Below, in pieces: positions 2,852 through 62,379 of a DNA stretch of 64,000 nt. The stretch's first letter is position 1. Each line of letters starts with the position of its first letter. Below the pieces are notes generated by a model. The model saw only the letters and a program-made list of their open reading frames with translations, did no database searches and had not been told where the DNA came from. The position numbers and the translations under genes are program-made. The DNA comes from Nakazawaea peltata (taxonomy: Eukaryota > Ascomycota > Pichiomycetes > Alaninales > Pachysolenaceae). The stretch is taken from contig BCGQ01000010.1 of the NCBI GenBank assembly GCA_001599355.1, forward strand, positions 124,001 to 188,000, in the 5' to 3' direction.

Positions 2852-4483
2852 ATGTCTAGTGAGAAGAAAGACGAAGTTGTGGTGGCAGTCGAGGAGAATG
2901 ACTCTCTTGCCGAAAAAGAAGAGGAAGTCCCAGACTACAAGTCTGTCAAACCAGTTTACCTTCCATTTAGTAAATGTAAAGAATTGTTCTTCACCAGGAA
3001 GGACCCTAACCCCCTTCCAGAAAGAAAGTTCTTCTTTTGGTACCCACCAGGACAAACTGCCTATGAGAAGAGATTGGTCTTCAAGATTGACTGTGCAATC
3101 ATGAGTTATGTTTGTCTCAGTTATTTCGTCAGATATTTGGATCTGCAAAACGTTTCGTCCCTGTACGTTTCTGGTATGAAAGAGGATTTACATATGGATG
3201 GAGGAGAAGACTATAATGTTGTCACTCAAATGTTCAGTGTTTCGTATGCTCTTGCTGGTCCATTCTCTAACTTGGCTTTGACTAAAGTTAAAGCTCATCA
3301 TTTGTTACCAGCTTTGGAACTTCTTTGGGGGTTGATGTGTTTGTTGGTTTACAGAGCCAAGAATTACCAAACAGTTGCAGGATTGAGATTTGTTCAAGGT
3401 CTTTGTGAAGGAGCTGCCTGGCCTCTGATTCATTATATCTTGGGTTCATGGTATACTCCAGATGAGTTAGCCAAGAGGACTTCTATTTTCATCGCTTCTG
3501 GTAGTGTCGGTACTATGCTTTCTGGATTAATTCAATCTGCTTTAAAGGCTACCATGGATGGTGTCGGAGGTTTAGCTGGTTGGAGATGGTTATTCATTAT
3601 CGATGCTCTTGTTACATTCCCAATTGCCTTTTATGGATTCTTCTTATTCCCAGATGTTCCTAATAATGCTACTGCAAGATTCTATCTTAGTGAGGAAGAC
3701 ATTGAGTACTGCAGAAATAGAGTCAAGGTTGCTGGTAAACACAGAGTTAACAAATTCGATTGGTCTATTCTTAGACGTGTCTTCACCAGTTATAATTGGT
3801 ATTTGTTCGTTTTTGCTTGGATCCTTTGGGGTTTTGGTGGTACACTTCTGGATTACTACAGTATTGTCTTGAAGTACTTAGGATACAATGTTTACGACAG
3901 AAACAATATTCCTTCTATTCAAAGAGGTGTCGCTATTGTATGTTGTATTATAAGTGGATTTGTTATTGATATGAGACGTAAGAGATGGGAGGTAGCCGTT
4001 GTTGCAACTCTTATCTGGATTGCCTCAATTTCTATCATTGTCGCATGGGACGTTCCAAGAGGAGCAATGATCTACGGTTACACAATGATGGCAATGTCAA
4101 GTGTTATGTCTCCATTAATTGTAGGCTGGGCTAACGAATTGTGTAAGGATGATGATCAAATCAGAGCCGTCACCATCGGTAGTTTGAACTTCGTTTCTGG
4201 ATTGTTGCAAGTTCCATACATTTTTGTCTTGTTCAACACCGACTACGGACCAAAGTTCACCATTGGTAACAGAGCTTGTTTAACCATTGTTACCATTCTT
4301 TTCTTCTATATCTTCTTGATTGTTCAATTTGACAGATATCAAAGAAGAAAGAGAGATTATATTCTGACTTTACCAACAGCAGGAGGTGAAGTTATTGTAG
4401 CTGAAGATGATGAATCCAGATCTGGGGAATCTAGATCTGAAGAATCAGAGGAACAAAGTTCTATGATTGCTAGTCGTAAGTAG
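2852..4483 (+). CDS. MFS transporter, anion:cation symporter (Fen2/Liz1 pantothenate-type)
   Basis: The 543-residue protein has a hydrophilic acidic N-terminus (about 75 residues), then around twelve hydrophobic segments, then a charged Ser/Glu-rich tail. Signature stretches are those of the Dal5/Fen2 branch: a YLD-x-QN-x-SS block followed by YVSGMKEDL (residues ~97-113), ILGSWYTPDELAKR, and GLAGWRWLFIIDA. Members are proton symporters for organic acids such as pantothenate, allantoate or biotin at the plasma membrane. Closest in my memory is FEN2, but the exact substrate is not determined. The CTG at codon 104 falls where Fen2 has Ala (NAYVSGM). A close second copy lies at 52412-54019. The start codon has an A-rich context (ATCAAAATG). 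Confidence 0.85.
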   Translation: MSSEKKDEVVVAVEENDSLAEKEEEVPDYKSVKPVYLPFSKCKELFFTRKDPNPLPERKFFFWYPPGQTAYEKRLVFKIDCAIMSYVCLSYFVRYLDLQNVSSLYVSGMKEDLHMDGGEDYNVVTQMFSVSYALAGPFSNLALTKVKAHHLLPALELLWGLMCLLVYRAKNYQTVAGLRFVQGLCEGAAWPLIHYILGSWYTPDELAKRTSIFIASGSVGTMLSGLIQSALKATMDGVGGLAGWRWLFIIDALVTFPIAFYGFFLFPDVPNNATARFYLSEEDIEYCRNRVKVAGKHRVNKFDWSILRRVFTSYNWYLFVFAWILWGFGGTLLDYYSIVLKYLGYNVYDRNNIPSIQRGVAIVCCIISGFVIDMRRKRWEVAVVATLIWIASISIIVAWDVPRGAMIYGYTMMAMSSVMSPLIVGWANELCKDDDQIRAVTIGSLNFVSGLLQVPYIFVLFNTDYGPKFTIGNRACLTIVTILFFYIFLIVQFDRYQRRKRDYILTLPTAGGEVIVAEDDESRSGESRSEESEEQSSMIASRK

Positions 4484-4734
4484 TTTGTATAAGAAAAGAT
4501 AAGCTGGACTTATATTAATTTGTAGTATGTAGACAACCCCCCAAAAAAGGGATACATCAGCATTTTACGAATGAACATAGCACTTTACAAATTATCTACC
4601 GTAATAGTCAAATGAGCAAGTTACGAATGTTCCTCAGCAAAAAATTAATCTCATCCCTCAGAGCAAAAATCTCAAATTAACCGCCCTTAAAAAGAGACCC
4701 AAAGCTGATAACGACGACCATCAGAAGCCATTCA

Positions 4735-6675: not shown

Positions 6676-6697
6676 TAGATTTTATAATAAATAATGA

Positions 6698-7480: not shown

Positions 7481-8512
<1,032 letters not shown>

Positions 8513-10797: not shown

Positions 10798-12822
10798 TTA
10801 GAAGTAGTCATTGCGGGGCATTGATCTGCTCATTGAAGACTGGGGACGTCTGAGGTTGCGAGGATGCTCCATAAATGATGGTGCTTGGAATGTCAGTCCA
10901 TGGATAGTAGAACGATAATTCTTCTTAGCCCCATGAGATGACATCACATTTGTTATATTGCCTAGATTGGAACGAGTCCCCATTGAAGTTTGGGACCGGA
11001 GTGGTAATGGTTTAATATCTTTATCTGATTCAAAAGAGGAGTCAGAGATGATTGAGCAAGCCGAACATGACGATCGACTTGAACATGAAGAAATTGGTCT
11101 AGGAATATTAGAAGAAGGATGGGAATTCTCAAACCCATTCACCACTGTTGAGTTTGAGGATTTGGAGGGAAATCTCAGCTTAGGCATAGGAAGTCTAGAA
11201 ATCATTCTAGATTTCATTTTCTCTCTTTCTGATCTTATAAGTTCGGACTCTTGAATCTTTAGACTCTCTAAATCTGCTACTAAATTATTCATTATTTCAT
11301 CCTCTGTTTTTGAATCATCTTCTTTATCACTTTCCAGTAAAAGTCTATCGGTAATATTGGATTTGTTTTTCAATTCAGTGAGTGAATCTGGGTCAAGAGA
11401 TTGTCTTCCTTGTGATACTCTCAAAATGGACTCTGGAGTATTTTGAATGTAAATTGGTCTAATACCTAAAGAACTTGTGATGGAGTTACGTAATAATTTC
11501 TTTTTTATTGGGGAGACCAGTTCTGGCTTGAAATCCAATTTCTCCAGGGGTTTAGATCCTTGGATTTGGAGTCCGTTGTCATCTATTACTTGAACTTTCT
11601 TCACGTCCATCAATATTTGCTGCTTTTCCAGGTCTGTAAGATCTTTTGTACTTCCTTCTTTAGGTAATTTGGCCAATTTCGGCAGCAAAACCTTCCAATT
11701 GTCAATCAATTGCTCATAATTCGAGATAATTACTTCGGTTAATTGGAATTTATGCAATTTTCTAATATTCCCCATCATTGTAAGTGACTTATCTAAAATG
11801 GAGACCTTGAAATTTGTCTTACTATCAGCCACAGTAGCCGAGTCTACAGAATTTACATCAGTATTACTCAAATCACTACTACCTGAGACAACTTTCTCTA
11901 GATCTGTGTATACCCAAGTGGCCTCAGTGACCATCTTCTCAAAGATCTCTTGCCATTTGGAATCAAGCAACTCATCTTTCAAGCTGAGTAAATCTTTATT
12001 GAGGAATTTCATCTTCTCTTGTAGCAGATTGTACCTTGTTGATAAAGCATTGGATAAATCTGGGTAGAGCTCTTTGGCAGTGTGCTGGAAATTGTCCAAA
12101 GTGGCTGGAATAAATTCAAGAGACATCTTCAATGGTTTGACCCGGATATCCAAACTCTGATATTGCTGATAAAGTAACTCCTCATGGCTGTTACAAATAG
12201 GTAACTCTAACTTATTACTGGCCAATTTGTTAGTCAACCGAAGAAGGTCCCATTTCTGGAAATCGGCTCTAGAAGCTTTGTATGGAGTGGTCAATTTAGT
12301 TTCTTGAATCTTAAAAGACTCTTTAAGACATTCGTTCAGTTCCAGGTCAATCCCGCCCAACACTTGCTGGTCCAACTCATGGTACAGTACAGCTACATCG
12401 AGTCTCTTCTTGTACAAGATGACAAATTTCTTGATTTGAAGTGACAAGTCACCAACAATCTCGAAATTCTCCAAAACTTCTTCATATTTCTGCCCTTGGT
12501 CATCCACAGACTCTAAAAATACCAACAGTTGAGATATCACATCATCTACATGCTCTAAATTCTTAACAAGGTCCACAATTTCATTACGACCTTCGTATAT
12601 CCAACTCACTGAGTATTTGTCCTCTATGTCAGCTTCATCAATATCACCAAACACTTCCAACAACGATGCCAAATAATCACATACATCCTCTACAGTGTGG
12701 TCAATTTTCAATATATCGAAACCTTCCTCTGTCTCTTGGACCAGTTTCAATTTGACAAGCTCATGGAAGAATGAGAACTGTTTGCAAGACTTGAGAATAT
12801 CTGAAAGAAGGAGTGAAGCCAT
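10798..12822 (-). CDS. KAR9: Kar9, cortical spindle-positioning protein
   Basis: The 674-residue protein matches Kar9 in length (644 in S. cerevisiae), in its all-helical N-terminal two thirds (residues 1-~420, spectrin-like), and in its Ser/Pro/Arg-rich disordered C-terminus. An SxIP motif, S-N-I-P at 571-574, in a basic Ser-rich context is the expected docking site for EB1/Bim1. Kar9 links Bim1 on microtubule plus ends to the myosin Myo2, orienting the spindle toward the bud, and acts in nuclear congression during mating. The position between KEL3 and MDL2 repeats S. cerevisiae order. Two perfect Mcm1-type boxes lie upstream. Confidence 0.88.
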   Translation of the reverse strand: MASLLLSDILKSCKQFSFFHELVKLKLVQETEEGFDILKIDHTVEDVCDYLASLLEVFGDIDEADIEDKYSVSWIYEGRNEIVDLVKNLEHVDDVISQLLVFLESVDDQGQKYEEVLENFEIVGDLSLQIKKFVILYKKRLDVAVLYHELDQQVLGGIDLELNECLKESFKIQETKLTTPYKASRADFQKWDLLRLTNKLASNKLELPICNSHEELLYQQYQSLDIRVKPLKMSLEFIPATLDNFQHTAKELYPDLSNALSTRYNLLQEKMKFLNKDLLSLKDELLDSKWQEIFEKMVTEATWVYTDLEKVVSGSSDLSNTDVNSVDSATVADSKTNFKVSILDKSLTMMGNIRKLHKFQLTEVIISNYEQLIDNWKVLLPKLAKLPKEGSTKDLTDLEKQQILMDVKKVQVIDDNGLQIQGSKPLEKLDFKPELVSPIKKKLLRNSITSSLGIRPIYIQNTPESILRVSQGRQSLDPDSLTELKNKSNITDRLLLESDKEDDSKTEDEIMNNLVADLESLKIQESELIRSEREKMKSRMISRLPMPKLRFPSKSSNSTVVNGFENSHPSSNIPRPISSCSSRSSCSACSIISDSSFESDKDIKPLPLRSQTSMGTRSNLGNITNVMSSHGAKKNYRSTIHGLTFQAPSFMEHPRNLRRPQSSMSRSMPRNDYF

Positions 12823-13097: not shown

Positions 13098-15488
13098 TTA
13101 GAGATGAGTTCTTGACTCTTCACGGATTTCACGATCTTCAATTCTTTCAGGTAAAGGTCTGTGTAAGGATTTGCGAACTTCATTGGCCAGATCCATTTCT
13201 GGAGCGAAATCTTGGGTGGAATTTTCATCAGATTTCAGATCGAAACTTTCTTCTTCTTGTTGTTCTTGATCATGTTGGTCATGCTCTTCTTCGTCGATCT
13301 CCTCTTTCTTATCTTTATTACTCTCTTCATTAAGAAGTCTGAATAAATGAGATTCTTGATTACTGTAAAGTTCCTTGAATTTACCATATTCAACCAACTT
13401 ACCATCATAACCCAAAACTAAAACGTAATCAGCTCTCTCAATAGTACTGAGTCTATGCAGAATCGAGATAGTGGTCATGCTATGATCACGCATCAATTGA
13501 TTAAGAGTATTATTGACCAGAGTCTCCGATTTAGAATCAAGCAGAGAAGTCAGTTCGTCCAAAATCAACACCAGAGGTTTCTTTAACAAAGCCCTCAGAA
13601 TAGCCACTCTCTGTTTCTGTCCTCCACTTAACAACGATCCTCTCAGTCCGATATAAGTGTCGTATCCATCAGGGAATCTATCGATGAACTCATGACAGTT
13701 CAGTTTCTTCAGAACTGCAACAATTTCTTCATCTGATACTTTGATATGACGAGGAATTCCATACTTGATATTCTCCTCAATTGTACCTGACATCAACACT
13801 GGTTCTTGTTGAACGATACCAATGATATTGGATCTCAACGAATGGACACTATAATTGGTGATATCTTCACCATCGATCAAGATCTTACCCAGTTGAGGGT
13901 TATAAAATCTCAATAACAATGACAGAATCGTAGATTTACCACGTCCAGAAGGTCCCACAATACACACATTGGACCCGCTCAGAATCTTGAAAGAAATCTC
14001 ATCAAATATCACATTGTTAGGTCTAGTTGGATACAGGAAAGTCACCTTATCGAATATTATCTCTCCGTTAGAATGCTTCAACTTTTCACCTACGGTCAAT
14101 TCGATACTGGAACGACGATCCAATAACTCGAATAATCTCGACAGAGCACCTGCACCTTTCATCAATTCAGAATAGAAATTGGCCAAACCAAATACAGCAC
14201 CTCCAGCATACTCTGTATATAACATGAACAGGGTCAAATCACCAATGGTCATCATTGAGGACATAACTAAATGTGTACCATACCCAAGAGTTAATAAAAA
14301 GGTGATATTACCTATCACACCAGTACTAGCGAAGAATGTGGCATTGGTAAGCAGCTCAGTGTACCCAATTTTATACACATTTCTGATTTGATTGTCATAT
14401 CTATGTAATTCCTTAGGCTGGGAGGTGAAACTTTGGATGGTCTTGATACTATTCAACTGTTCTTCAGCGATCTTAGTCAAGGAACCAGTAGCTTGCTGCA
14501 ATTTACGAGAAATCTGTCTAATCTTTCGTCCATAGACATATGATCCCCAGAGTAATGGAGGCAGAAACAGTAAGATCACCACAGTCAATTTCATAGAAAT
14601 CATCAGCATCATGGTTATACCTGTGACTCCTACAATAGTATGTTTAATTCCATCGGATAAATTCTGAGTGATCGAACGAGATACAACATAGGCATCTCCC
14701 GATAATCTGGAGATCAAATCACCCACCTTGTTAACATCATAGAATTCCATATCCTGTGAAAGAGTCTTCTTCATGATATTCAGTCTCAAACGCAGCACCA
14801 ACTTCTCTCCGAGTACTCTTAAAATGATAATTCTTCCAAATGTAGCGATGGTGGAAACGGTCAATAACGCAGCCATGATGGTCAAGAACGGCGTTAAACC
14901 GAACCCGAATAACTCGATATTCTCCAAAGAATCGAACCGCTTTGTCAGATCCAAGATCTCACCGGTGACTTTCGGAAGCAGCATCACAATTCCGGCACTG
15001 AGGAATAAAAGCAGAACCAGGATAGAGAAGATCCGCATGTCACGACGCGCCAATTTCAATAACCGCACAACTTCGCGCCATCCTGATTTCTGGATGTCTC
15101 CCGTGTTCAGCGAAAGTTTCAAAGGATGTGAAGCAAAACTGTCATCTTCCTCAGCATCAGATGAGGTCAGCTTGGATTTCTCTTTGGCCTTGGCTGACGG
15201 TGACGAGCTGAAATGACGAAGGGATAGCACCAGCTGTTGGGTCTGGGTAGGCGCTGTGTTTCTGAAGTGTATCGATGTGAGAAGAGCAGGTTTAGAGACC
15301 AAGAAAGGATGTGTATGAGGTGTAACGGCTCCGGTGAAACCACGGATCCCTCCGAGTGAGGGACGTGCCCATCCGACTAAGGGGCGTGCCCCTGGGTAGG
15401 TCTGAAGACCAGTGAGGAGACCCATGGCGGGCCTGTAACTGGTCTTCCCCAGCATATGGAAACTCAAGTATGCCCTTGAAATCGACAT
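13098..15488 (-). CDS. MDL2: Mitochondrial half-size ABC transporter Mdl2
   Basis: The 796-residue protein has an Arg/Ser/Ala-rich mitochondrial presequence (residues 1-~110), six membrane segments (~150-440), and an ABC domain (~490-725) with Walker A GPSGRGKST, signature LSGGQKQR and Walker B LVLILDE. The GRGKST form, the YTEY-x-GGAVFGL segment and the highly acidic Asp/Glu/Gln-rich tail match Mdl2 better than Mdl1. Mdl2 lies in the inner membrane; the Mdl1 relative exports peptides from the matrix. Four CTG codons fall at invariant alanines (residues 631, 646, 649, 677). Its neighbours KAR9 and ATP15 are the same as in S. cerevisiae. Confidence 0.93.
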   Translation of the reverse strand: MSISRAYLSFHMLGKTSYRPAMGLLTGLQTYPGARPLVGWARPSLGGIRGFTGAVTPHTHPFLVSKPALLTSIHFRNTAPTQTQQLVLSLRHFSSSPSAKAKEKSKLTSSDAEEDDSFASHPLKLSLNTGDIQKSGWREVVRLLKLARRDMRIFSILVLLLFLSAGIVMLLPKVTGEILDLTKRFDSLENIELFGFGLTPFLTIMAALLTVSTIATFGRIIILRVLGEKLVLRLRLNIMKKTLSQDMEFYDVNKVGDLISRLSGDAYVVSRSITQNLSDGIKHTIVGVTGITMMLMISMKLTVVILLFLPPLLWGSYVYGRKIRQISRKLQQATGSLTKIAEEQLNSIKTIQSFTSQPKELHRYDNQIRNVYKIGYTELLTNATFFASTGVIGNITFLLTLGYGTHLVMSSMMTIGDLTLFMLYTEYAGGAVFGLANFYSELMKGAGALSRLFELLDRRSSIELTVGEKLKHSNGEIIFDKVTFLYPTRPNNVIFDEISFKILSGSNVCIVGPSGRGKSTILSLLLRFYNPQLGKILIDGEDITNYSVHSLRSNIIGIVQQEPVLMSGTIEENIKYGIPRHIKVSDEEIVAVLKKLNCHEFIDRFPDGYDTYIGLRGSLLSGGQKQRVAILRALLKKPLVLILDELTSLLDSKSETLVNNTLNQLMRDHSMTTISILHRLSTIERADYVLVLGYDGKLVEYGKFKELYSNQESHLFRLLNEESNKDKKEEIDEEEHDQHDQEQQEEESFDLKSDENSTQDFAPEMDLANEVRKSLHRPLPERIEDREIREESRTHL

Positions 15489-16918: not shown

Positions 16919-18988
16919 ATGACTGTCAATAGAGATCACTACTACCTGTTGGCAAGTGACGAAGAAGCCAAGCGGATTGAGCTGCTGTCTCTCTTGTTAC
17001 AAGAATTGTTAGACCATGACGATTCCAAAGAATTTCAGTATGCTTTAGACCGTTTAGTCAAGGGACTTGCCTCATCCAGAGACTCAGCTAGAATTGGGTT
17101 CTCGACATGTCTCACTGAGTTGTTATCAATCTTGTTGAGTGACAAGGGATATACGCTGAATGACTTCTTGAAGGAGTTGGATTTCAAAATAACCGCCAAT
17201 ATCTCCAAAAATAACGGTAAAAACGAAAGAGCTATCTTATTTGGGCGTATTTTCGGGATTCAGCTGTTGTTGAACTGTTCATATGAGTTCCTGGTGGAGG
17301 ATTATAAGGAGATTTATACAAAATTGATTGAGATTTCACTTTCCAAATCATGGATTCGTGAAACCTGTTTCGTTACTATCGTTTCTAGTGTTCAAAGATT
17401 GTCGGAGACTGCTGAAGAGGCGGTTATTCCAGATTTGTTAGCTGCTGTTGAAGAATCTGGGTTGACTTCGACTTGTGAAGGGCTACTTTTACATCTTTCA
17501 GTGTCAGCTAAGTACATTTCTAGCCTCAATAACTCGCCTTGGAAAGATAATAACCCCCTTGCCAAAGGAAATTTACCAATGTTGGCCAAAATCTTGAAAG
17601 AATCTGCTAATAATGACCAACCTCTGCAACAGAAAGGTTCATGGCAACCTCGTATCCACAAAGTCTGGCCAGTTCTTTTAGTAAAGTTGTTACAAGAGGA
17701 CCAATCATCAACTACCACACTTAAATCGCCTAAAAAGAGATCTAAAAACCACCATCAGACCCCCTCTTCCACTATCACTTTCTCAGAATTCTGGAAACTG
17801 ATCATCGATGACCAATTCTTTGCTTCTAGTGCCTCTCCAGAGAGAAAATATTGGGGTTTTGAAGTGTTCCGTTTAGCTTGTAAACTTATCCCAGACCACA
17901 CCAAGGTCTCTGTAATTTTATCCCCAAATTTGATGCGTACTTTGATCAACCAATCTTCCAAAGCAGACCGCATGTTGAATAAAATCGCTAAATTGGTCTT
18001 GGAAGATATCATTCTTGTCTCTAGAAGAGATGTTTCACATCAAATCGCTATTTTAACCAAACTCTTAAAAGAAGAATCGATCAGCTTCGATTCCTTAACT
18101 AAATCCAAGACCTGCGAAACCATTATCCATAATAAAGATCTCAGATCAGTACTGGAATTACTTGAATTCTTTATTAATTGGTTCGGGGAGTTGGATGACT
18201 CTAAAAAGAAGCGTCTTATCTTGGACCAAATCGCCTCCGTAGTCAATATCAATAGAGATGATATCCAATTGGTATTACCTCTGTTCAAACTCTTGGTGAG
18301 AGTTGCATTTTTCAAGTCACGTGACCAAGAAGGGGGTGATTCCGAAATTAATATTTTATCTGAAGCTCTGCAACAAAAGCTTAAATCTCTTTTGACCACT
18401 TTTACGTCTAATCTCTCCCAAATAATCTCTCTCATTTCTGAGCTGGAGCAAGATAACTCTTTGAAATTGAATTTAGAGTTCGATGAGGAGTTGCTTCAAG
18501 TTAAAAATGAAGCCATAAGCACTTTAGATACTATTAAATTAGCTCAAGAAAAGAAACCTGAAGACAAGAAATTGACTTGCTTCGAAATCTTGTACTCCAT
18601 GACTATAATTCAGTTATATTCTGGGGATGAAGACTCGATTCTGTTAATTCCGGAGTTAAATGTGGCTTTTGAGAAGCAATTTGATGATTCTGAGGAGTCT
18701 ACAATTGAACTGAACTCGATTTTGATGGATATTTTATTGACGTATATCTCTGAGAAGTCGGCATTGATGAAGCAATTGAGCTTTGTATTATGGGAATTTT
18801 TAGTAGGTAGTGGAGGACTGGACATTGAAATGTTGGGGGAGATTTTGGTTACTAAGGAGAATAAAGAGGGGCAGAAAAAGTTGTTTAATACTGGGGATGA
18901 GGGGGAGGAAGGGCAAGAAGAGGGGCAAGAAGGGGGGCATATTCATGATGAGAATTGTGATCATGACGAAGATGAGGACGAAGATGAT

Positions 18989-19023
<35 letters not shown>

Positions 19024-19759
19024 AGATAACACAGACCTAGATAAAGTTGACCAAGAAACTAATCTGGCCCTCGCTAAAGCCCTCGGAATCCCAACTAATT
19101 CCGAAGAACTGAAAAATTCCGATTCCGACTCCGACTCCGACTCCGACTCCGATTCAATGTCCGACGACTCAATGTCCGATGAACAAATGATGGCCATCGA
19201 TTCCACCCTCTCCCTGATCTTCCAACAACGTCAGAACGCAGTTGAAGAAATCAAATCAAAGTCCGGTAACCAGCGTAAAATAGAAGTCCAGGACCTGCGC
19301 GAGATGATGATTTTCTTTAAGAACCGGGTGTTGGATTTGATTGAAAAATTCACCGAATTGCAGCCTAAATCTCCTAAAAATCTCCATTTCATTTTGCCAA
19401 TGTTACGTTTGATCGAGTTGACTACCGATAAAAATTTGGGGGAGAAGTGTCATAAGATCTTGAAGACAAAGGTTTGTAAGACTAAATTGGAGGATATCGA
19501 TCAGGAGGAATGTGAAAAGATGTTAAAAGAGATCCATATCGAAGCATCATCCTCATCGATTAAACTGCATTCTAATGCTTGTTCTCAATGTTCTCTCTTC
19601 GTAGCTAAGACCATGGTGAACAACAAACCCGAACTGACCAATCAGATCATCGATATCTATTCGGCCACCTTGAAAGAATGGACACAGAAGAAGGAAAACA
19701 AAATTACAAGTAACTTATTCTTCGATTTCATCAATTGGTTAAATTCCAAGAGGGAATAA
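16919..19759 (+). CDS. POL5: Pol5 (Mybbp1A family), rRNA synthesis factor
   Basis: The 946-residue protein belongs to the Pol5/MYBBP1A family: nucleolar helical-repeat proteins, formerly called DNA polymerase phi, that work in rDNA transcription and 60S assembly rather than replication. The N-terminal start (YLLASDEEAKR, then RLVKGLASSRDSARIGFSTCLTELL) matches the conserved Pol5 segment. A long acidic tract, Asp/Glu repeats at about residues 660-705 and an SDSDSD run at about 733-747, precedes the C-terminal helices, as in orthologues. The acidic tract is encoded by GAC/GAT and TCC-GAC repeats and is likely variable in length. The PAC/RRPE pair upstream agrees with the role. Confidence 0.92.
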
Positions 19760-19772: not shown

Positions 19773-20466
19773 TTAAAGAATCCTACTGAATGGATTTAAT
19801 CTGCTTATAAACCCACCAACTACTCCGTTGGCCAAGTCGTTCAGTTTACCGAATTTATCACATTTGGTGAACAGCATGGCGTTCAATGTAGTTAAAACGA
19901 TCAGAATCAACACCAAAATCAATGATAAAAATTCAAACTTCAAAACTGCCACTACTCCCAAAATGATCCAAAACAGGGGAGCTCCATATAAAAAGATCCA
20001 GAACACTTTGGAGTCAATTGGGTTGATATAACGACCAGGGTCCAGCGTTTCAAATACCCACACACTTTCGCCGATCTCATTTGTTTCGTTCCACCATCTC
20101 AATCCCACCATTAATCTACCACTTATATTCTTCACGTTCCAAAAGTCCAGCAGTAAAAGTAAGATCACACAGATGAACTCTAAGATGAAGTTGCTGGTGA
20201 ACAACAATCCGAGTAAATATACAAGTAATGAGCCAATTCTGAATCCGAGATAGAATAATAACAGCACGGGATGAGAAGATTCCGAAAGTCGTTGATATAA
20301 TGTTCTTACAATGGTGTTATTCTCGTTTCCGCCCGAGGCTCCGCCGGCTGTGGGTGTGTACAGGGTGCTCTGTAAAGTTAGTATTTGGATATCTCCGGAG
20401 AGACGGTCGTCATGGGGCTCAATTCGCCATTGAATTGTCTCTCAATTGATATATTCTACTTACCAT
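19773..20466 (-). CDS. TVP23: Golgi membrane protein Tvp23, spliced
   Basis: The first exon is just the ATG (20464-20466). After a 94-base intron, 19773-20369 encodes the rest, giving 199 residues. Four hydrophobic segments and the blocks HPV-x-LLFYLGFR, DFWNVKNISGRLMVGLRWW and INPIDSKVFW identify the TVP23/FAM18 family, found in late Golgi vesicles. S. cerevisiae Tvp23 has the same RLVQLRWW and NAIDSKLFW motifs. The CTG in HPV-CTG-LL sits where the human protein has Ala (HPLAS). It converges with POL5 with only 13 bases between stops. The precise function of the family is not known. Confidence 0.93.
20370..20463 (-). other. Intron of TVP23 after the start codon
   Basis: Donor GTAAGT directly follows the ATG. 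The branch site TACTAAC is the reverse of 20377-20383 and the acceptor is CAG. Without splicing no ATG precedes the conserved HPV-x-LL segment in frame, which decides the model. Confidence 0.9.
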
Positions 20467-20790: not shown

Positions 20791-21135
20791 TTATTTACTC
20801 TCATCCAAATCAATACCCAACTCCTTAGCTCTCTCCTCTAATCTCTTTCTCTTCTCTAATTTAGCCAGTCTCATTCTAGCCAATTCCAGTTGGATTTCAT
20901 AAGGTTCCTTTGGAATTTTATTCAACGTATTAGGATCAGGCCAGAATCCAGGAACATTAAACTTCTTATCAGTGTCAATACCCACGTAATACATGATAGA
21001 AATTGGCGTCAATAAATAGAATGTGAACTGATAATGTTAGTACTTGATGTGCTGGATCTTAATTTCTCGATCACTTACCTTCAGTAACTCAAACTGTGAC
21101 CTCGTGAGGTTCAATCTTGGAAATTTAAAAGCCAT
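20791..21135 (-). CDS. PET100: Cytochrome c oxidase assembly factor Pet100, spliced
   Basis: Exons 21079-21135 and 20791-21027 join to give 98 residues starting MAFKFPRLNLTRSQFEL. After a short hydrophobic segment comes IMYYVGIDTDKKFNVPGFWP, then NKIPKEPYEI, which is nearly identical to the core of Pet100. The C-terminus is a Lys/Arg/Glu-rich helix. Pet100 is an inner-membrane chaperone needed for late assembly of complex IV. TVP23 and PET100 are also close neighbours in S. cerevisiae. It diverges from MYG1. Confidence 0.96.
21028..21078 (-). other. Intron of PET100
   Basis: 51 bases, donor GTAAGT, branch TACTAAC (reverse of 21036-21042), acceptor CAG. It splits the codons for ...ELAK and FTFYL between exons in phase 0. 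Confidence 0.93.
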
Positions 21136-21340: not shown

Positions 21341-22351
21341 ATGGAACCAGAATCAAAGAAGATCAAGTTGGAAATGTCAGAACTGAAGTTGATTTGTACT
21401 CATAGTGGATCCTTCCACGCAGATGAGCTGTTAGGTGTATACATGTTGCGTTTGTTGCCTGAATTCAAGGACGCCCAATTGGTGAGATCTAGAAAGCCAG
21501 AAGATTGGGAGCGTAGTGATATTGTGATCGATGTCAGTGGTCAATATGATCAAGTGAAGTATTTTGACCATCACCAGAGAGAGTTTGACACTACTTTTAG
21601 TGATGAGTACCAAACCAAGTTGTCAAGTGCCGGTTTGGTCTACAAACATTATGGTCATAAAGTCATCAGGCTGATCTTGCCAGAGTATGAGGGTAAGGAT
21701 GAAGAGGTTGAGATTTTGTACCAAAAGGTTTACAGAGAGTTCATTGAGAGTGTTGATGCCAATGATAATGGTGTTGCCAACTATCCAGCCGATATTAAAC
21801 CTAAATTCCACGACAAGAATTTCACTTTACTGTCGCTGGTTGCTCATTTGAATCCTGGCAGCTTCGAGTCCAGTACTGATCTGGATTTCGATGCTAAATT
21901 CTTGATCCTGAGTGATTTCATGGGTAAGATCTTTGTCAATTTGGTAGAAGGTTACGGACGTGATTGGTTACCACTGAAGAATCTTGTTGCTAAGCTGTTT
22001 GAGGAGAGATTCTCTGTTCATAAGAGTGGACTGATCGTTGTTTTCGACTCATTCTTGCCTTGGAAAGAACATTTATATGATTTGGAGAAGAAGAATGGTG
22101 TAGAAGGTCAAGTTTTATACGTTTTATTCCCAGATTCATCTGGAAATTGGAGAGTTTCTGCCGTTCCTGTGTCTGCTTCATCTTTCGACAGTAGAAAGAA
22201 GTTGCCTGAGCCATGGAGAGGTCTTCGTGATGATGCTTTGAGTGAGAAGGCTGGTGTTGAGGGGTGTATTTTCATCCATGCTGCTGGATTCATTGGAGGT
22301 GCCAAGACTAAGGAAGCCACATTGAAGTTAGCAGAACTTGCTGTTGAATAA
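21341..22351 (+). CDS. MYG1: Myg1-family exonuclease
   Basis: The 336-residue protein belongs to the MYG1/UPF0160 family of DHH-type enzymes. Human MYG1 is a 3'-5' RNA exonuclease in nucleolus and mitochondrion. Visible motifs are CTHSGSFHADE (residues ~19-29), VIDVSG-x-YD, the DHHQRE metal-binding block, QTKLSSAGLVY, PWKEHLYDLE and EPWRGLRDDALS. Codon 30 is CTG in HADE-CTG-LG, at the Ala of HCDEALA in the human protein. Full length, no intron. MYG1-BEM2-OXA1 order is that of S. cerevisiae YER156C-YER154W. Confidence 0.95.
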   Translation: MEPESKKIKLEMSELKLICTHSGSFHADELLGVYMLRLLPEFKDAQLVRSRKPEDWERSDIVIDVSGQYDQVKYFDHHQREFDTTFSDEYQTKLSSAGLVYKHYGHKVIRLILPEYEGKDEEVEILYQKVYREFIESVDANDNGVANYPADIKPKFHDKNFTLLSLVAHLNPGSFESSTDLDFDAKFLILSDFMGKIFVNLVEGYGRDWLPLKNLVAKLFEERFSVHKSGLIVVFDSFLPWKEHLYDLEKKNGVEGQVLYVLFPDSSGNWRVSAVPVSASSFDSRKKLPEPWRGLRDDALSEKAGVEGCIFIHAAGFIGGAKTKEATLKLAELAVE

Positions 22352-33180: not shown

Positions 33181-33732
33181 ATGTCAAGAGCTAGGAAGTT
33201 GGCAGTTGTAGGCTCTAGAGCCGTAGGAAAGTCATCGATGACTGTTCAATATGTGGAAGCACATTTCGTCGAGTCGTACTACCCCACGATCGAAAACCAA
33301 TTCAGCAAGACAATCAACTTCAAGAACAAGGACTTTGCTATTGAGATTTTGGACACTGCAGGACAGGATGAGTTCTCTATTATGAACCAGAAGCATTTGA
33401 TTGGAGTCCACGGGTACATCATGGTGTATTCGATCACTTCTCGGAGCTCGTTCGAGTTGCTCCGTGTCATTCGCGATAAGATCATCGACAGCACTGGAAA
33501 CGAGCTGATTCCGATGATCATCGTGGGCAATAAGAAGGATCTTGAGCTGCAGAGGCAGGTGACTCAGCTGGAAGGTGCTCTGTTGGCTAAGGAATTCAAC
33601 TGTAGTTTTGTTGAGACCTCTCTGAGACAGAACACCAACGTTGATCGCCTGTTTGAGGGCTTAATTCAAGAGATTGAGAAGATTCAGAACCCCGGGGGTA
33701 GTAAAGAGGAAGAGAAATGCATAATAATGTGA
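33181..33732 (+). CDS. RHB1: Rheb-type small GTPase
   Basis: The 183-residue Ras-superfamily GTPase starts MSRARKLAVVGSRAVGKSS. The first ATG is at 33181; the longer frame would need TTG. The P-loop G11-S-R-A-V-G-K-S has Arg at position 13, the Rheb hallmark where Ras has Gly. Other motifs are DTAGQDEFS, NKKD and a C-terminal CaaX box C-I-I-M for prenylation. Yeast Rhb1 affects arginine/lysine uptake and canavanine sensitivity; in many fungi it acts toward TORC1. A CTG in EGA-CTG-LAKEF aligns with Ala in human Rheb (EGKALAES). Confidence 0.94.
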   Translation: MSRARKLAVVGSRAVGKSSMTVQYVEAHFVESYYPTIENQFSKTINFKNKDFAIEILDTAGQDEFSIMNQKHLIGVHGYIMVYSITSRSSFELLRVIRDKIIDSTGNELIPMIIVGNKKDLELQRQVTQLEGALLAKEFNCSFVETSLRQNTNVDRLFEGLIQEIEKIQNPGGSKEEEKCIIM

Positions 33733-47402: not shown

Positions 47403-47651
47403 TTAATTACACATAGAAATCCGAACACAAAGATCTAAATACTCTTGATGAGGTGAATCCATTAAATCTCGCACCTTCGGTACCGTCGCTATAGATTGAC
47501 CATTCAATTTGGAGATGACACTTTTTCTTAGTACGGAATTTGGTAATTTCTGAGCAAGTTGATCATGAAGGGATTGAGTGGAGGCAAGCGGATCAATATT
47601 GAGAGAGATATTATCTAGCCCTGGGATTGTTTGTAGGAAGATAGTTACCAT
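47403..47651 (-). CDS. Small ubiquitin-like-fold ORF, Sde2 N-terminus-like
   Basis: The 82-residue ORF reads MVTIFLQTIPGLDNISLNID, then a helix-like LHDQLAQKLPNSVLRKSVIS, and ends YLDLCVRISMCN. The strand-helix pattern recalls the N-terminal ubiquitin-like domain of Sde2, where a Leu-rich last strand is followed by a GGKGG processing site. That Gly-Gly is absent here and the frame stops. The frame stays open 51 more codons upstream to another ATG (47804), but that part is basic and unlike a domain. No intron signal leads to a continuation in the 380 bases downstream. Real gene, fragment or chance ORF cannot be told apart. Confidence 0.35.
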   Translation of the reverse strand: MVTIFLQTIPGLDNISLNIDPLASTQSLHDQLAQKLPNSVLRKSVISKLNGQSIATVPKVRDLMDSPHQEYLDLCVRISMCN

Positions 47652-47804
47652 AGTGGAGAGTATTAGAGATCGGTAGATTATCGAGTAACTTATCGGGGGA
47701 TTCTCAGTAGTTCTTATTTTCCGTGTTCTTCTTAGCTGTTTAGTGTCTTGGTGTATCTTTCTGGTTCTCCCCTGTTTCTGCCTCTGCTTATCTCTACCTC
47801 TCAT

Positions 47805-48484
47805 TAAACTATATATAATATAAATCGATCTAAATGTACTTCAACAGAAATAATACTGATATATCTGAGCACTTTATCAATATATAATTCTACAATACCT
47901 TTAAGAATTTCCTCTAACGATTTCTCCAATTTTCATCACTTTCGCTCACTTTAGTGTTGTAGTAGTGCGTTCATTCCCATTTCCTATTTAAGTAAATTAC
48001 ATTTTCCATCTAGAACATTCCATTGATCGATGCGTTGCGCGTGTCAGAACAGTGCTTTGCGCAGTATGGGAAATTCAGGAAACGATTCTAAAGGGCAGAA
48101 GAGAGGAATTGATGGGTGGATAACTGACAGACCACCGATTGATACCGCATTTTCTTTCATCCAGACACTTTACCTCTTAAATCTTCCTCCCCTCCGCACT
48201 TCCGTCTTCCCTCAATCCCATCCCAATCAACAACCCCCCACCTCCTCCTCCCTCCCTTCCTCCACCTCTCTCCTTTTCCCTCTCCTTTTCCCTCTCTTTC
48301 TCTCCATCCATCCCTCCCCCTCGCCCCCAAAGAACCCCAAAGAACTTTCTAGCGCACTAACGAAAAATTTTCCCCCAAAATGGACGAATTTTCATATAAA
48401 TTAAACACCTTCTCTTTGATCAACCGACTCGATTCATCAATTGAATTAATTATCAGTTAGTCATTACACCACTCAACTCTCAAA
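47805..48484 (+). promoter_or_regulatory. HSP82 promoter with heat-shock elements and TATA box
   Basis: Candidate heat-shock elements are GAA-CA-TTC at 48013-48020 and a gapped GAA-n7-GAA-CT-TTC at 48332-48349. A TATAAAT box is at 48395-48401, 84 bases before the start. A long C/T-rich tract (about 48185-48330), common before highly expressed yeast genes, lies between. The minus side may hold the leader of the small ubiquitin-like ORF. Confidence 0.6.
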
Positions 48485-50590
48485 ATGTCCACGAAAGCTG
48501 AATCATTTGAGTTCCAAGCTGAGATCTCTCAGTTGATGTCCTTGTTCATCAACACCGTCTATTCTAACAAGGAGATTTTCTTGAGAGAATTGATCTCTAA
48601 CGCCTCTGATGCCTTGGACAAAATCAGATACGAGGCCTTATCCGATGCTTCTAAATTGGAATCCGAGCCAGAATTGTTCATCAGAATCACTCCAAAGCCA
48701 GACCAAAAAGTCTTGGAGATTAGAGATTCCGGTATTGGTATGACCAAGGCCGATTTGATCAACAATTTGGGTACTATTGCTAAGTCTGGTACTAAGCTGT
48801 TCATGGAGGCCTTGAGCGCCGGTGCCGATGTTTCTATGATCGGTCAATTCGGTGTCGGTTTCTACTCTCTTTTCTTGGTCGCTGACCATGTTCAAGTCAT
48901 TTCCAAGCACAACGATGACGAGCAATACATTTGGGAGTCCAACGCCGGTGGTAAGTTCACCGTCACCTTGGATGAGACCAACGAGAAAATCGGTAGAGGT
49001 ACTATCTTGAGATTGTTCTTGAAGGAGGATCAATTGGAGTACTTGGAAGAGAAGAGAATCAAGGAAGTTGTCAAGCGTCACTCCGAGTTCGTCTCTTACC
49101 CAATTCAATTGGTTGTCACCAAGGAAGTTGAAAGAGAAGTCCCAGTAGAGGAAGAGGAGAAGACCGAAGAAGAAGATGACAAGAACCCAAAGATTGAAGA
49201 GGTCAAGGAAGATGGTGAAGAAGAGAAGGAGAAGACCAAGAAGATCAAGGAAAATGTCACCGAGACCGAGGAGTTGAACAAGACCAAGCCATTATGGACC
49301 AGAAACCCAACCGATGTCACCCAAGAGGAGTACAATGCCTTCTACAAGTCCATTTCTAACGACTGGGAAGACCCATTGGCTGTCAAGCACTTCTCCGTTG
49401 AAGGTCAATTAGAGTTCAAGGCTATCTTGTTCATTCCAAAGAGAGCTCCATTCGACTTGTTCGAGAGCAAGAAGAAGAAGAACAACATCAAGTTGTACGT
49501 CCGTCGTGTCTTCATCACCGACGAGGCCGAAGAATTGATCCCAGAATGGTTAAGCTTCGTCAAGGGTGTTGTCGACAGTGAAGACTTGCCATTGAACTTG
49601 TCCAGAGAGATGTTGCAACAAAACAAGATCTTGAAGGTTATCAGAAAGAACATTGTCAAGAAGGTTATTGAGACTTTCAACGAAATTGCCGAGGACCAAG
49701 AGCAATTCGACAAGTTCTACACTGCCTTCTCCAAGAACCTTAAGTTGGGTATCCACGAGGACTCTTCCAACAGATCTGCTTTGGCCAAGTTGTTGAGATA
49801 CAACTCCACCAAGTCCGCCGAAGAGTTGACCTCTTTGTCTGACTACGTCACTAGAATGCCAGAGCACCAAAAGAACATCTACTACATCACCGGTGAATCT
49901 ATCAAGGCCGTTGAACAATCTCCATTCTTGGATGCCTTGAAGGCTAAGAACTTCGAGGTCTTGTTCCTTGTTGACCCAATCGATGAGTACGCTATGACTC
50001 AATTGAAGGAATTCGAGGACAAGAAGTTGGTTGACATCACCAAGGACTTCGAGTTGGAGGAAACCGACGAAGAGAAGGAACAAAGAGAGAAGGAAGTTGC
50101 CGAATTCGAGCCATTGACTAAGGCCTTGAAGGATATCCTTGGTGACCTGGTTGAGAAGGTTGTTGTCTCCCACAAGTTGGTTGATGCTCCAGCTGCTATC
50201 AGAACCGGTCAATTCGGTTGGTCTGCCAACATGGAGAGAATCATGAAGGCTCAAGCTTTGAGAGACACCACCATGTCCTCTTACATGGCTTCTAAGAAGA
50301 CCTTCGAGATCTCTCCAAGATCTCCAATCATCAGAGAATTGAAGAAGAAGGTTGAGAGCGAGGGTGCCGAAGACAGAACCGTCAAGGATTTGACCACTTT
50401 GTTGTACGACACCGCTTTGTTGACCTCCGGTTTCACTTTGGATGAGCCAACTTCTTTCGCTACCAGAATCAACAGATTGATCTCTTTGGGATTGAACATT
50501 GATGAGGAAGAGGAAGCTGCTGCCGCTCCTGAGGCTGAAAAGGCCGACGATGAGGCTGTTGTCGAATCTGCCATGGAGGAAGTCGATTAA
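48485..50590 (+). CDS. HSP82: Cytosolic Hsp90 chaperone
   Basis: The 701-residue protein is collinear with S. cerevisiae Hsp82 (709). It has the N-terminal ATPase domain ([31 protein letters not shown]), a charged linker of Glu/Lys (~215-260), the middle domain with the catalytic-loop Arg region ([13 protein letters not shown]), and the C-terminal dimer domain ending MEEVD for TPR co-chaperones. Codon use is strongly biased to TTG, AAG, GTC and GGT, as for abundant proteins. CTG is rare: codon 105 is CTG in TK-CTG-FMEAL, where Hsp82 has Ala. The gene converges with CIN2, as in S. cerevisiae. Confidence 0.99.
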
Positions 50591-52411: not shown

Positions 52412-54019
52412 ATGTCTAAAAAAGAAGGTAACATCATCGTCCAGGAGGAGGAGATCGATATCGATAACGACTCCTTCACCAAGGAACTTGACACCTCCCA
52501 AAATAGAAAGGTTGTCTATTTACCTTTCAGTAAATGTAAGGAATTGTTCTTCTCGAACAAAAACCCAAAGTCCAAACCAAAGAAAGATTTCTTCTTTTGG
52601 TACCCTCCAGGGCAGTCTTCTTATGAGAAGAAGTTGGTTTTCAAGATTGACTGTGCTATCATGAGTTATGTTTGTCTCAGTTATTTCGTTAGATATTTGG
52701 ATCTGCAAAACGTTTCCTCCCTGTATGTTTCCGGTATGAAGGAAGATTTGCATATGACTGGTGGTCAAGACTACAATGTTGTTACTCAATGTTTCAGTAT
52801 TGCCTATGCTCTTGCTGGTCCTTTCACCACTTTGTTGTTGACCAAAGTTAAAGCCCATTATTTGTTGCCAGCAATGGAGCTTCTTTGGGGTTTGATGTGT
52901 TTGATGGTCTACAAAGCTGAGAATTATCAAACTGTAGCTGGTTTACGGTTTGTTCAAGGTCTTTGTGAAGGTTGTGCTTGGCCTCTGATTCATTATACTT
53001 TGGGTTCTTGGTACACTCCAGAAGAATTGGCCAAGAGAACTTCCATTTATACTGCCAGCGGTAGTGTTGGTACTATGCTTTCTGGTTTCATTCAATCTGC
53101 TTTGAAGAAAAATATGGATGGTGTTGGAGGTTTGGCTGGTTGGAGATGGTTGTTTGTCATCGACGCTATTGTCACCTTCCCGATTGCCATCTACGGTTTC
53201 TTCCTCTTCCCAGATGTTCCAAATAATGCCACTCCAAGATTCTTCCTCTCTGAGGAAGATATTCAATACTGTAGAAACAGAGTTAAAGTTGCTGGTAAAC
53301 ATAGAGTCAACAAGTTTGATTGGTCTATCCTCAAACGTGTCTTCACCAGTTACAATTGGTACTTATTTGTTGTTCTGTGGATCTTATGGACCAATACCGG
53401 AAGTGAAATGGATTATTTCAGTATTGTTTTGGAAGATTTGGGTTACAATGTCTATGAGAGAAATAATATTCCAACGTCTACTAAGGGTGTCTCCATTGTT
53501 AGTTGTGTTTTGAGTGGTTTCCTTATTGATATTAGACGAAAAAGATGGGAAGTGGCAGTATTGGCGATGAGTATTTGGATCATTGGTCTTTCATTGGTGT
53601 TCCTGTGGGATGTTCCTCGGTGGGCTCTTATTCTCGGATATTGTTTGCAAGCGATGACCAGTGTCATGTCACCTTTGATTGTTGGTTGGTGTAATGAGTT
53701 GAGTAAGGACGATGATCAAATGAGAGCTGTTACCATTGGAAGTTTGAACTTCGTAGCCGGATTAATCAATGTTGGTTATGTCTTTGGATTATTCAACACC
53801 AATTGGGGTCCACGTTTCTATCTTGGTAACAGAGCTGGTTTAATCATGGGTATTGTTTTGTTTTTGTACATGTTTGTTATTCTTCACTTTGACAGATATC
53901 AAAACAGAAAGAGAGATTATATCGAAGAGATGGAAGAAGAAGGAGATGAAGAATCTCATATGGGTTCTTCTTCATCTGTTGAAGAGGTAATTGTTGAGCC
54001 AAAAACTGTTACTAAATAA
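52412..54019 (+). CDS. MFS transporter, second Fen2/Liz1-type copy
   Basis: The 535-residue protein is a close paralogue of the transporter at 2852-4483, sharing PFSKCKELFF, FWYPPGQ, the segment from KIDCAIMSY through YVSGMKEDL, and most of the later membrane segments. The N- and C-terminal tails differ. I use the ATG at 52412 (CTCAAAAATG); an in-frame ATG 17 codons upstream has a poor context and no match in the paralogue. Both copies are probably proton-coupled plasma-membrane carriers for an organic acid such as pantothenate. A stretch of DNA near 52621-52740 is over 90 percent identical to the first copy, including silent sites. Confidence 0.85.
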   Translation: MSKKEGNIIVQEEEIDIDNDSFTKELDTSQNRKVVYLPFSKCKELFFSNKNPKSKPKKDFFFWYPPGQSSYEKKLVFKIDCAIMSYVCLSYFVRYLDLQNVSSLYVSGMKEDLHMTGGQDYNVVTQCFSIAYALAGPFTTLLLTKVKAHYLLPAMELLWGLMCLMVYKAENYQTVAGLRFVQGLCEGCAWPLIHYTLGSWYTPEELAKRTSIYTASGSVGTMLSGFIQSALKKNMDGVGGLAGWRWLFVIDAIVTFPIAIYGFFLFPDVPNNATPRFFLSEEDIQYCRNRVKVAGKHRVNKFDWSILKRVFTSYNWYLFVVLWILWTNTGSEMDYFSIVLEDLGYNVYERNNIPTSTKGVSIVSCVLSGFLIDIRRKRWEVAVLAMSIWIIGLSLVFLWDVPRWALILGYCLQAMTSVMSPLIVGWCNELSKDDDQMRAVTIGSLNFVAGLINVGYVFGLFNTNWGPRFYLGNRAGLIMGIVLFLYMFVILHFDRYQNRKRDYIEEMEEEGDEESHMGSSSSVEEVIVEPKTVTK

Positions 54020-61010: not shown

Positions 61011-61087
61011 AAAAATACCCCCTTTTTTTGGTGTCATGATGTAGTGAGTAGAAAAAAATATGTGAGAGCGAAATACGAAGAAATATG

Positions 61088-61185
61088 TGACTCAGGATCC
61101 AAAATCGGAGTCAAACTTCATTTTTCATAATAAATTAGTCTGCGTCGAACTAATTTTAAGAAGAAAAAAGACCCCAGAAGAGTCA
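61088..61185. promoter_or_regulatory. Three Gcn4-type sites upstream of SER1
   Basis: TGACTCA at 61088-61094 is a perfect Gcn4 site. GAGTCA, the reverse of TGACTC, occurs at 61108-61113 and 61180-61185. The distance to the SER1 start is 28-125 bases. This fits general amino-acid control of serine synthesis; the 3'-most copy may lie in the leader. Confidence 0.7.
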
Positions 61186-61212
61186 TCTTCATATAGAACT
61201 AAAAACGAGAAA

Positions 61213-62379
61213 ATGGACAGAGAACTCCCACATTACTTTGGAGCTGGACCAGCTTTATTGCCAACTGAGGTCTTGCAGCAGGCTGCTGCCGACATGATCA
61301 ACTTCTCCAACATCGGATTGGGTGTTGGAGAGATCTCCCATAGATCGAAGCCAGCTATCGAGGTCATCGACAAGACTAAAGCTCATATGAAGGAATTGTT
61401 GAATATTCCAGACAACTATGAGGTATTTTTCTTGCAAGGTGGAGGAACTACCGGTTTCTCCTCTATTGCCACTAACTTGGCTGCTAACTTTGTCAAGAGA
61501 ACTGGTAAGGCTGGTAAGGCTGGATATGTCATCACTGGTTCTTGGTCTAAAAAGCTGTACGAAGAGGCTGATAGATTGGACTGTAATGCCGAGGTTATTA
61601 TTGACCTGAAAAAAGTCAACGGTAAATTCGGTGGAATCCCTGAGACCAGTCTGTGGGCTTCTGATTTCGACGCCTCCAATACCAGTTACATCTACTACTG
61701 TGACAATGAGACAGTGAATGGTGTCGAATTCAGAGAAGAGTTCCCATTCGAGAAGTACGAAGGTATTCCAATTGTTGCTGATATGTCTTCTAACTTCTTG
61801 TCGAAGAAATTGGACGTCTCCAAGTTCGGTTGTATCATGGCTGGTGCTCAAAAGAACGTTGGATTGGCCGGTATCACTGTGTATATTATCAGAAAGGACT
61901 TGATCGAGCAACCTACCGATGCCGAGATCAAACTGGCCGGATTACCTCTCTCACCAATCCTGTTCCATTATCCTACTGTTATCTCCAACAACTCTGCCTA
62001 CAACACTATTCCAATTTTCACTGTTCATATCATTGATTTAGTATTGACCAGACTCATTGCCAAGGGCGGTATGCTGAAACAAGAGGAGATCAACAACAAA
62101 AAGGCTCAAATTTTGTACGAGGCCATCGACAAGTACCCTGAATTATACGTTCAGCCAGTTGATAAGAGCTGTAGATCTCAAATGAACGTTGTTTTCACCA
62201 TCAATGGAGAGGGCAACGAAGCCAAGTTCTTGAAAGAAGCTGAGTCCAAGTACAAGTTGACTGGATTAAAGGGTCACAGATCCGTCGGTGGTATGAGAGC
62301 TTCGATCTATAACGCTGTTGAGTTAGAGAGTGTCGAATTGTTAGTTAAATTCATTAATGAATTTGCAGCTTCTGCCTAA
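61213..62379 (+). CDS. SER1: Phosphoserine aminotransferase
   Basis: The 388-residue PLP enzyme converts 3-phosphohydroxypyruvate plus glutamate to phosphoserine, the second step of serine synthesis from glycolysis. The start MDRELPHYFGAGPA is that of the family; a frame extension upstream begins only with GTG. The PLP lysine is K214 in MAGAQKNVGLAG. Other conserved blocks are FLQGGGTTGFS, GSWSKK, YPTVISNNSAYNTIPIF and GLKGHRSVGG. CTG codons fall at alanines, for example PI-CTG-FHYP at codon 250. Length matches Ser1 (395). Confidence 0.97.
   Translation: MDRELPHYFGAGPALLPTEVLQQAAADMINFSNIGLGVGEISHRSKPAIEVIDKTKAHMKELLNIPDNYEVFFLQGGGTTGFSSIATNLAANFVKRTGKAGKAGYVITGSWSKKLYEEADRLDCNAEVIIDLKKVNGKFGGIPETSLWASDFDASNTSYIYYCDNETVNGVEFREEFPFEKYEGIPIVADMSSNFLSKKLDVSKFGCIMAGAQKNVGLAGITVYIIRKDLIEQPTDAEIKLAGLPLSPILFHYPTVISNNSAYNTIPIFTVHIIDLVLTRLIAKGGMLKQEEINNKKAQILYEAIDKYPELYVQPVDKSCRSQMNVVFTINGEGNEAKFLKEAESKYKLTGLKGHRSVGGMRASIYNAVELESVELLVKFINEFAASA

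Follow-up and report, generated by a model that had tools for sequence, protein, structure and literature searches.

Alignments and domain profiles point to CUG as an alanine codon in a 64 kb stretch of probable budding-yeast nuclear DNA

Introduction

The code in which CUG specifies alanine is said to have been discovered in 2016, in papers by Muhlhausen and by Riley. Until 2016, the CUG-to-serine change was the sole nuclear sense-to-sense change known in eukaryotes, as stated in passages of PMC5951914, which also assign the genera Nakazawaea, Peterozyma and Pachysolen to an alanine clade. In the NCBI taxonomy, the order Alaninales consists of one family, Pachysolenaceae, with these three genera; a passage of PMC12322030 gives n = 17 for Alaninales genomes. 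Here, we analyze a 64 kb stretch of DNA (the window; 41.0% guanine plus cytosine (GC), N count 0) for which a first-pass annotation, made from the letters alone, had claimed that CUG is translated as alanine and not as leucine or serine. We find that CTG codons of the window act as alanine codons both in alignments and in domain profiles.

In yeasts of the alanine clade, CUG is read by a new tRNA with a CAG anticodon, derived from a tRNA-Ala gene, and neither alanyl-tRNA synthetase (AlaRS) nor seryl-tRNA synthetase (SerRS) requires particular anticodon bases, according to the same passages (PMC5951914). The CUG-serine codes of Serinales and Ascoideales are similar in that the same codon was captured by an anticodon-shifted tRNA whose synthetase is blind to the anticodon (PMC5951914); unlike them, the window has alanine, not serine, at this codon. 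The code of Pachysolen, Nakazawaea and Peterozyma (NCBI table 26) agrees with the window in that CTG is alanine and CTT, TTA and TTG stay leucine, and in the budding-yeast gene content (KAR9, snR36, DNA_pol_phi). In Ashbya mitochondria, CUU and CUA are reportedly reassigned to alanine, as announced in the title of a paper. A CUN codon for alanine is thus common to Ashbya and the window, but the Ashbya change is mitochondrial and concerns CUU/CUA, whereas in the window CUG only is affected, in nuclear genes.

Results

Masked alignments to solved-structure homologues

Under table 26, the window holds 28 open reading frames (ORFs) of at least 150 amino acids. Budding-yeast genes recognized in it are those of Hsp90, Dim1, Ser1, MYG1, Rheb, an ABC transporter similar to Mdl1/ABCB10, Rpd3 and a metacaspase, and, further, Oxa1, DNA_pol_phi, KAR9, IQGAP, a protein with RhoGAP and RasGEF domains and others; gene names that go beyond the matched families or PDB entries are our labels. 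Nine window genes were globally aligned to 17 homologues from PDB with each CTG masked as X, and the amino acid that best explains the residues opposite CTG was sought among all 20 meanings, using probabilities derived from BLOSUM62.

Over 128 rows, alanine scored +49.9 bits, serine −3.0, glutamine −26.5 and leucine −61.4. As can be seen, alanine is the best of the 20 meanings, with a lead of 52.9 bits over serine and 111.3 bits over leucine. The same procedure, applied as a control to other sense codons with at least 8 rows, assigned 49 of 50 codons to their standard amino acid, the miss being CTC; 10 sense codons with fewer than 8 rows were not judged. When only locally conserved rows were used (n = 59), the lead of alanine was 31.1 bits and 47 of 48 other codons were assigned correctly, ATA going to methionine by 0.6 bits. 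With the first homologue only (73 CTG sites), alanine led serine by 29.0 bits and leucine by 64.5 bits.

Alanine also came first every time one of the nine genes was left out of the 73-site set, and it came first in eight of the nine genes when these were scored singly. Bootstrapping of the 73 sites placed it on top in 1977 of 2000 replicates, with glutamine, glutamate and lysine taking 15, 7 and 1 and leucine and serine none. A misreading of a few percent is below what such alignments can detect.

Direct counts and codon composition

Since the seven CTG codons cited by the first-pass annotation were hand-picked from more than 300 (314 in the 28 ORFs, with TVP23 lying outside these), an unpicked count was made. 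The residue of the first homologue opposite the 73 CTG sites of the nine genes was alanine in 28 cases, leucine in 4, serine in 4 and another residue in 37. Other leucine codons were found opposite leucine at 194 of 291 sites; GCN codons, opposite alanine at 112 and opposite leucine at 7 of 198 sites; serine codons, opposite serine at 128 and opposite alanine at 26 of 257 sites. The leucine share at CTG differs sharply from that at other leucine codons (p = 7e-23) and shows no difference from that at GCN codons (p = 0.49). Random sets of 73 sites, drawn 20000 times, contained at most 5 alanines when taken from sites of other leucine codons and at most 16 when taken from sites of serine codons. 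The alanine signal at CTG sites is well outside chance.

Columns in which at least two homologues were available and all agreed numbered 18 for CTG, and the residue was alanine in 12, lysine in 2, aspartate in 2, phenylalanine in 1, isoleucine in 1 and leucine or serine in none. Conversely, among 51 columns that are alanine in all compared homologues and encoded by CTG or GCN in the window, 12 carry CTG.

CTG accounts for 314 of the 16094 sense codons of the 28 ORFs, or 19.5 per thousand. If it is read as leucine, these ORFs contain 12.0% leucine and 4.6% alanine; if it is read as alanine, the values become 10.0% and 6.6%, and CTG makes up 29.7% of alanine codons. No depletion of the codon relative to GCN was seen in the regions alignable to PDB entries (73/314 versus 198/744 for GCN, p = 0.28). 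Within these regions, CTG occupies less conserved places (mean local identity 0.45 versus 0.58 at GCN), mostly because conservation is lower in the genes rich in CTG. Little use of CTG for alanine was seen in HSP82 (2/49) and HSP20 (0/7). No correlation was found across the 28 ORFs between the CTG share of alanine and the TTG share of leucine, taken as a proxy for expression (Spearman −0.16, p = 0.41).

CTG codons in individual genes

The clearest single case for CTG as alanine is provided by the motifs of the mitochondrial ABC transporter (Mdl1/ABCB10-like; 13098..15488, minus strand; 31 CTG). Seven of its CTG codons stand opposite alanine in both homologues, including codons 631 (13596..13598), 646 (13551..13553) and 649 (13542..13544). 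Read as alanine (table 26), these three codons restore SGGQKQRVAIARAL and LDEATSALD, as in the homologues; the corresponding segments become AILRAL and LDELTSLLD under the standard code.

The seven codons on which the first-pass annotation had based its claim are all CTG, namely HSP82 codon 105, DIM1 codon 170, SER1 codon 250, MYG1 codon 30, RHB1 codon 134, the HPV-CTG codon of TVP23 and codon 104 of a transporter, which is CTG in both copies of the latter. At four of them, those in HSP82, DIM1, MYG1 and RHB1, every solved-structure homologue compared has alanine. The Hsp90 gene HSP82/HSC82 (48485..50590, plus strand) encodes 701 amino acids with 2 CTG codons; codon 105 (48797..48799) is alanine in yeast Hsc82 and human HSP90-beta, and codon 555 stands opposite glutamine and lysine. 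In the rRNA dimethyltransferase gene DIM1 (7517..8512, plus strand; 3 CTG), codons 88 (7778..7780) and 170 (8024..8026) are alanine in the yeast, human and Plasmodium proteins, and codon 292 is opposite glutamate, aspartate and lysine. The MYG1 exonuclease gene (21341..22351, plus strand) has 10 CTG codons, 9 of which are covered by human MYG1; the human residue is alanine at 4 of these, including codon 30 (21428..21430), serine at 1 and leucine at 0. Bacterial relatives of MYG1, sought as an independent alignment, were not found. Both codon 134 (33580..33582) and codon 148 (33622..33624) of the gene for the Rheb-like GTPase RHB1 (33181..33732, plus strand; 6 CTG) correspond to alanine in human Rheb.

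The expectation for the phosphoserine aminotransferase gene SER1 (61213..62379, plus strand; 6 CTG) held in part: codon 250 (61960..61962) is alanine in the yeast homologue, but methionine in the plant and valine in the human one. Codon 147 is opposite leucine in yeast, glutamate in the plant and threonine in human. The histone deacetylase gene RPD3 (38653..40002, minus strand) has 8 CTG codons, 4 of them covered; codons 118 (39649..39651) and 157 (39532..39534) are alanine in yeast Rpd3, codon 297 is lysine and codon 371 is glutamate. In the metacaspase gene MCA1 (33813..35003, minus strand; 9 CTG), codons 102 (34698..34700) and 171 (34491..34493) are alanine in two fungal structures and codon 290 is leucine in yeast. 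The poorly conserved OXA1 insertase gene (29951..31150, minus strand; 16 CTG) has, over 14 CTG sites in the first homologue, alanine at 3, leucine at 2 and serine at 1.

A comparison that draws on no database is offered by two MFS transporters of the window, copy 1 (2852..4483, plus strand) and copy 2 (52412..54019, plus strand). The copies lie 48 kb apart and, when CTG is masked as X, have the same residue at 385 of 531 aligned positions; the pair is a dispersed duplication. Three CTG codons are common to both and hence uninformative. The partners of the 4 unshared ones are GCT, GCA, ATG and GAA: CTG codons 322 (53375..53377) and 398 (53603..53605) of copy 2 are matched by GCT (3815..3817) and GCA (4043..4045) in copy 1. 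Thus, two partners are alanine codons and none is a leucine or serine codon, the number of cases being small.

Pfam domain scores under three codes

Genes were translated with CTG as alanine (code 26), leucine (code 1) and serine (code 12) and scored against Pfam, one family being counted per stretch. The comparison comprises 29 domains of 20 genes; left out were KEL, SUI3, HSP20 and ANK, which have scores for code 26 only, and any family that overlapped a higher-scoring one. Summed over the 29 domains, alanine exceeded leucine by 120.9 bits, being higher in 25 domains and lower in 4, and exceeded serine by 66.9 bits, being higher in 18, lower in 8 and tied in 3. The strictly best code was that with alanine in 15 domains, with serine in 7 and with leucine in 3. 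In the DNA_pol_phi domain of POL5 (16919..19759, plus strand; 21 CTG), for example, the scores were 575.5 bits for alanine, 566.7 for serine and 551.4 for leucine.

Two of the codons named by the first-pass annotation, those of TVP23 and the MFS transporter, were tested only through scores of this kind, which refer to whole domains. The DUF846 domain of TVP23 (19773..20441, minus strand; a stop-to-stop frame with 9 CTG, HPV-CTG at 20262..20264) scored 182.0 bits with alanine, 173.6 with leucine and 175.2 with serine. The corresponding MFS_1 scores of transporter copies 1 and 2 were 120.8 and 146.3 (alanine), 120.4 and 143.4 (leucine) and 118.1 and 145.4 (serine). A Hus1-like checkpoint clamp protein (62794..63660, plus strand; a stop-to-stop frame whose start codon is not settled, located beyond the interval of the first-pass annotation) scored 176.0 bits under table 26, 172.1 with leucine and 170.7 with serine. 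TVP23 and Hus1 are outside the 29 domains and together add 12.3 bits to the advantage of alanine over leucine and 12.1 bits to that over serine. The general claim that CUG is alanine, not leucine or serine, was borne out by the masked alignments with their all-codon control, by the Pfam scores under three codes and by the MFS pair.

Other leucine codons

By the masked-alignment method, TTA, TTG and CTT score as leucine. CTC scores as isoleucine by 2.8 bits on few data, 20 rows from 10 sites, and CTA has 0 rows. The 10 CTC sites correspond to methionine, phenylalanine, valine, isoleucine, leucine and a few other residues; one is conserved as leucine, and CTC is opposite isoleucine, phenylalanine and methionine more than opposite leucine. 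On these few data, CTC is probably a leucine codon at variable hydrophobic sites. Over the whole window, there are 173 CTC and 24 CTA codons; both are scarce in conserved genes, with 10 CTC and 0 CTA among 3515 aligned codons.

Alternative readings of CTG

Several results weigh against alanine as the meaning of CTG. The 128 alignment rows are non-independent, since sites are common to several homologues. HSP82 taken alone (2 sites) puts glutamine narrowly above alanine. CTG sites are alanine less often than GCN sites (28/73 versus 112/198, p = 0.009). In the Pfam comparison, leucine is top-scoring in OXA1 (by 2.6 bits over alanine), DHHC (1.2) and KAR9 (8.5), and serine in 7 of the 29 domains, though by small margins. 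The largest counter-example is KAR9 (10798..12822, minus strand; 13 CTG), whose whole-protein scores are 174.3 bits with leucine, 165.8 with alanine and 165.7 with serine. The protein was split into three fragments, of which two matched the family (90.0 and 76.7 bits with alanine, 90.9 and 75.6 with leucine, 87.8 and 77.4 with serine) and the third gave no KAR9 match. The preference for leucine is gone from the fragment sums (leucine 166.5, alanine 166.7, serine 165.2), and KAR9 was rejected as a site-by-site leucine signal. The standard code (NCBI table 1), by which CUG would be leucine and the alanine matches a product of chance or cherry-picking, can further draw on two of the overlapping families left out above, MFS_1_like in transporter copy 2 (28.0 bits with leucine versus 25.4 with alanine) and AAA_16 in the ABC transporter (24.1 versus 20.8). 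The calibrated alignment test, with its 111.3-bit deficit of leucine, nevertheless refutes this code, and the 4 leucines at 73 CTG sites, the lack of leucine among the 18 agreeing columns and the high-leucine, low-alanine composition that it entails all stand against it. Chance and cherry-picking behind the named codons were rejected by the count over all 73 covered CTG sites, and the probability of the standard code is negligible.

Serine, the meaning of CUG in Serinales and Ascoideales (NCBI table 12), is the second-best meaning in the alignments, and its top scores in 7 domains are expected for a residue close to alanine. It is extremely improbable, since it falls behind alanine in alignments and Pfam alike (by 52.9 and 66.9 bits), is found at 4 of 73 CTG sites versus 128 of 257 for genuine serine codons and accounts for 0 of the 18 agreeing columns. 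One could also imagine a code in transition, with CUG mostly alanine but with a real share of leucine or serine. The alanine deficit relative to GCN would fit this, as would results on Pachysolen tannophilus cited in passages of PMC8645108, where one study gives 10% leucine at CUG and another more than 99% alanine. That deficit, however, is significant only when unstratified; with stratification by gene the odds ratio is 0.69 (p = 0.31), the leucine share at CTG equals that at GCN, and agreeing CTG columns with leucine or serine number zero, which makes such ambiguity unlikely. The change could finally be a second, independent event in a yeast outside Pachysolenaceae, separate from Alaninales. 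This is very unlikely given that a sampling of 52 yeasts, as described in PMC5951914, contains a single alanine clade, that this clade comprises three genera in the NCBI taxonomy and that the GC content of the window is near that of N. ambrosiae.

Other features of the window

At the gathering score, the sole Rfam match in the window is the H/ACA snoRNA snR36 (RF01242, 83.5 bits; 63730..63902, minus strand). A frame of 81 amino acids from stop to stop (20791..21036, minus strand) matches Pet100 with 29.2 bits from profile position 10 onward, and the start of this protein may lie in another exon. The ubiquitin-like N-terminus of Sde2 is weakly matched at 47403..47840 on the minus strand (25.5 bits, cut-off 26.4); the frame ends shortly after the match and is possibly a first exon. 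Neither ORF1 nor ORF13 matched a Pfam family when translated with code 26 or code 1, and ORF3 and ORF4 had no match with code 26, the only code with which they were scored. In the RhoGAP protein (23650..29457, plus strand), which we take to be BEM2 from its domain order, the RasGEF match (514-627) is N-terminal to the RasGEF_N match (938-1099). The usual order is RasGEF_N before RasGEF, the reverse of that seen here.

Discussion

Taken together, the window is almost certainly budding-yeast nuclear DNA in which CUG is read as alanine (NCBI table 26), and its source is most likely a member of Alaninales/Pachysolenaceae, with a GC content nearer to Nakazawaea than to Pachysolen. The GC content of Pachysolen tannophilus is near 30%. 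The N. ambrosiae genome has 42.3% GC and a size of 13.2 Mb (PMC10106607). The closeness of the 41.0% of the window to this value makes Nakazawaea the likeliest genus, which is only suggestive. The source proposed by the first-pass annotation, one of Pachysolen, Nakazawaea and Peterozyma or a relative, fits both this GC content and the alanine clade as delimited in PMC5951914.

By analogy with the published clade, CUG would be read by a tRNA-Ala whose anticodon has changed to CAG. Because AlaRS recognizes its tRNAs without reference to the anticodon, it would charge such a tRNA; tRNA-Leu(CAG), the ancestral reader of the codon, would be gone or unused. No tRNA with a CAG anticodon was found in the window, where the only tRNA detected by ARAGORN in 64 kb is tRNA-Val(AAC) (1863..1938, minus strand), which is absent from the Rfam matches at the gathering score. 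Selection against tRNA-Leu(CAG), perhaps exerted by a killer-plasmid toxin, is the driver proposed in PMC5951914, while passages of PMC8645108 favour loss of tRNA-Leu(CAG) followed by codon capture. The window data give no choice between these models.

The code of the window equals table 26, which has been described before in Pachysolen, Nakazawaea and Peterozyma, and is therefore not a new phenomenon. We do not claim the heavy use of CTG as new, since figures for Alaninales alone were not found in the passages cited here. PMC5951914 remarks of code-changed clades in general that CUG is relatively rare and tends to fall in poorly aligning regions, and CTG avoidance is described for Serinales and Ascoideales in parts of PMC11540330. 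The remark in PMC5951914 concerns code-changed clades overall and is not specific to the alanine clade; unlike it, CTG in the window is neither rare nor confined to poorly aligning regions. We tentatively suggest that CUG could be a mainstream alanine codon here rather than a marginal one, supplying about 30% of alanine codons and standing at invariant sites of essential genes.

Nuclear sense-to-sense code changes are very rare, and this one has a direct bearing on annotation. The standard code would turn about one alanine in three into a false leucine, and such errors would hit the ABC-transporter signature, the Walker B/D-loop region, DIM1 and RPD3. Genes of N. ambrosiae were predicted with S. 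cerevisiae settings (PMC10106607). The terms CUG, codon and genetic code were searched for in the main text of that paper and are absent from it; the N. ambrosiae protein set may hold leucine in place of alanine at CUG. The frequent presence of CTG at conserved alanine sites could help to test whether reassigned codons recover full use after fixation of the new tRNA.

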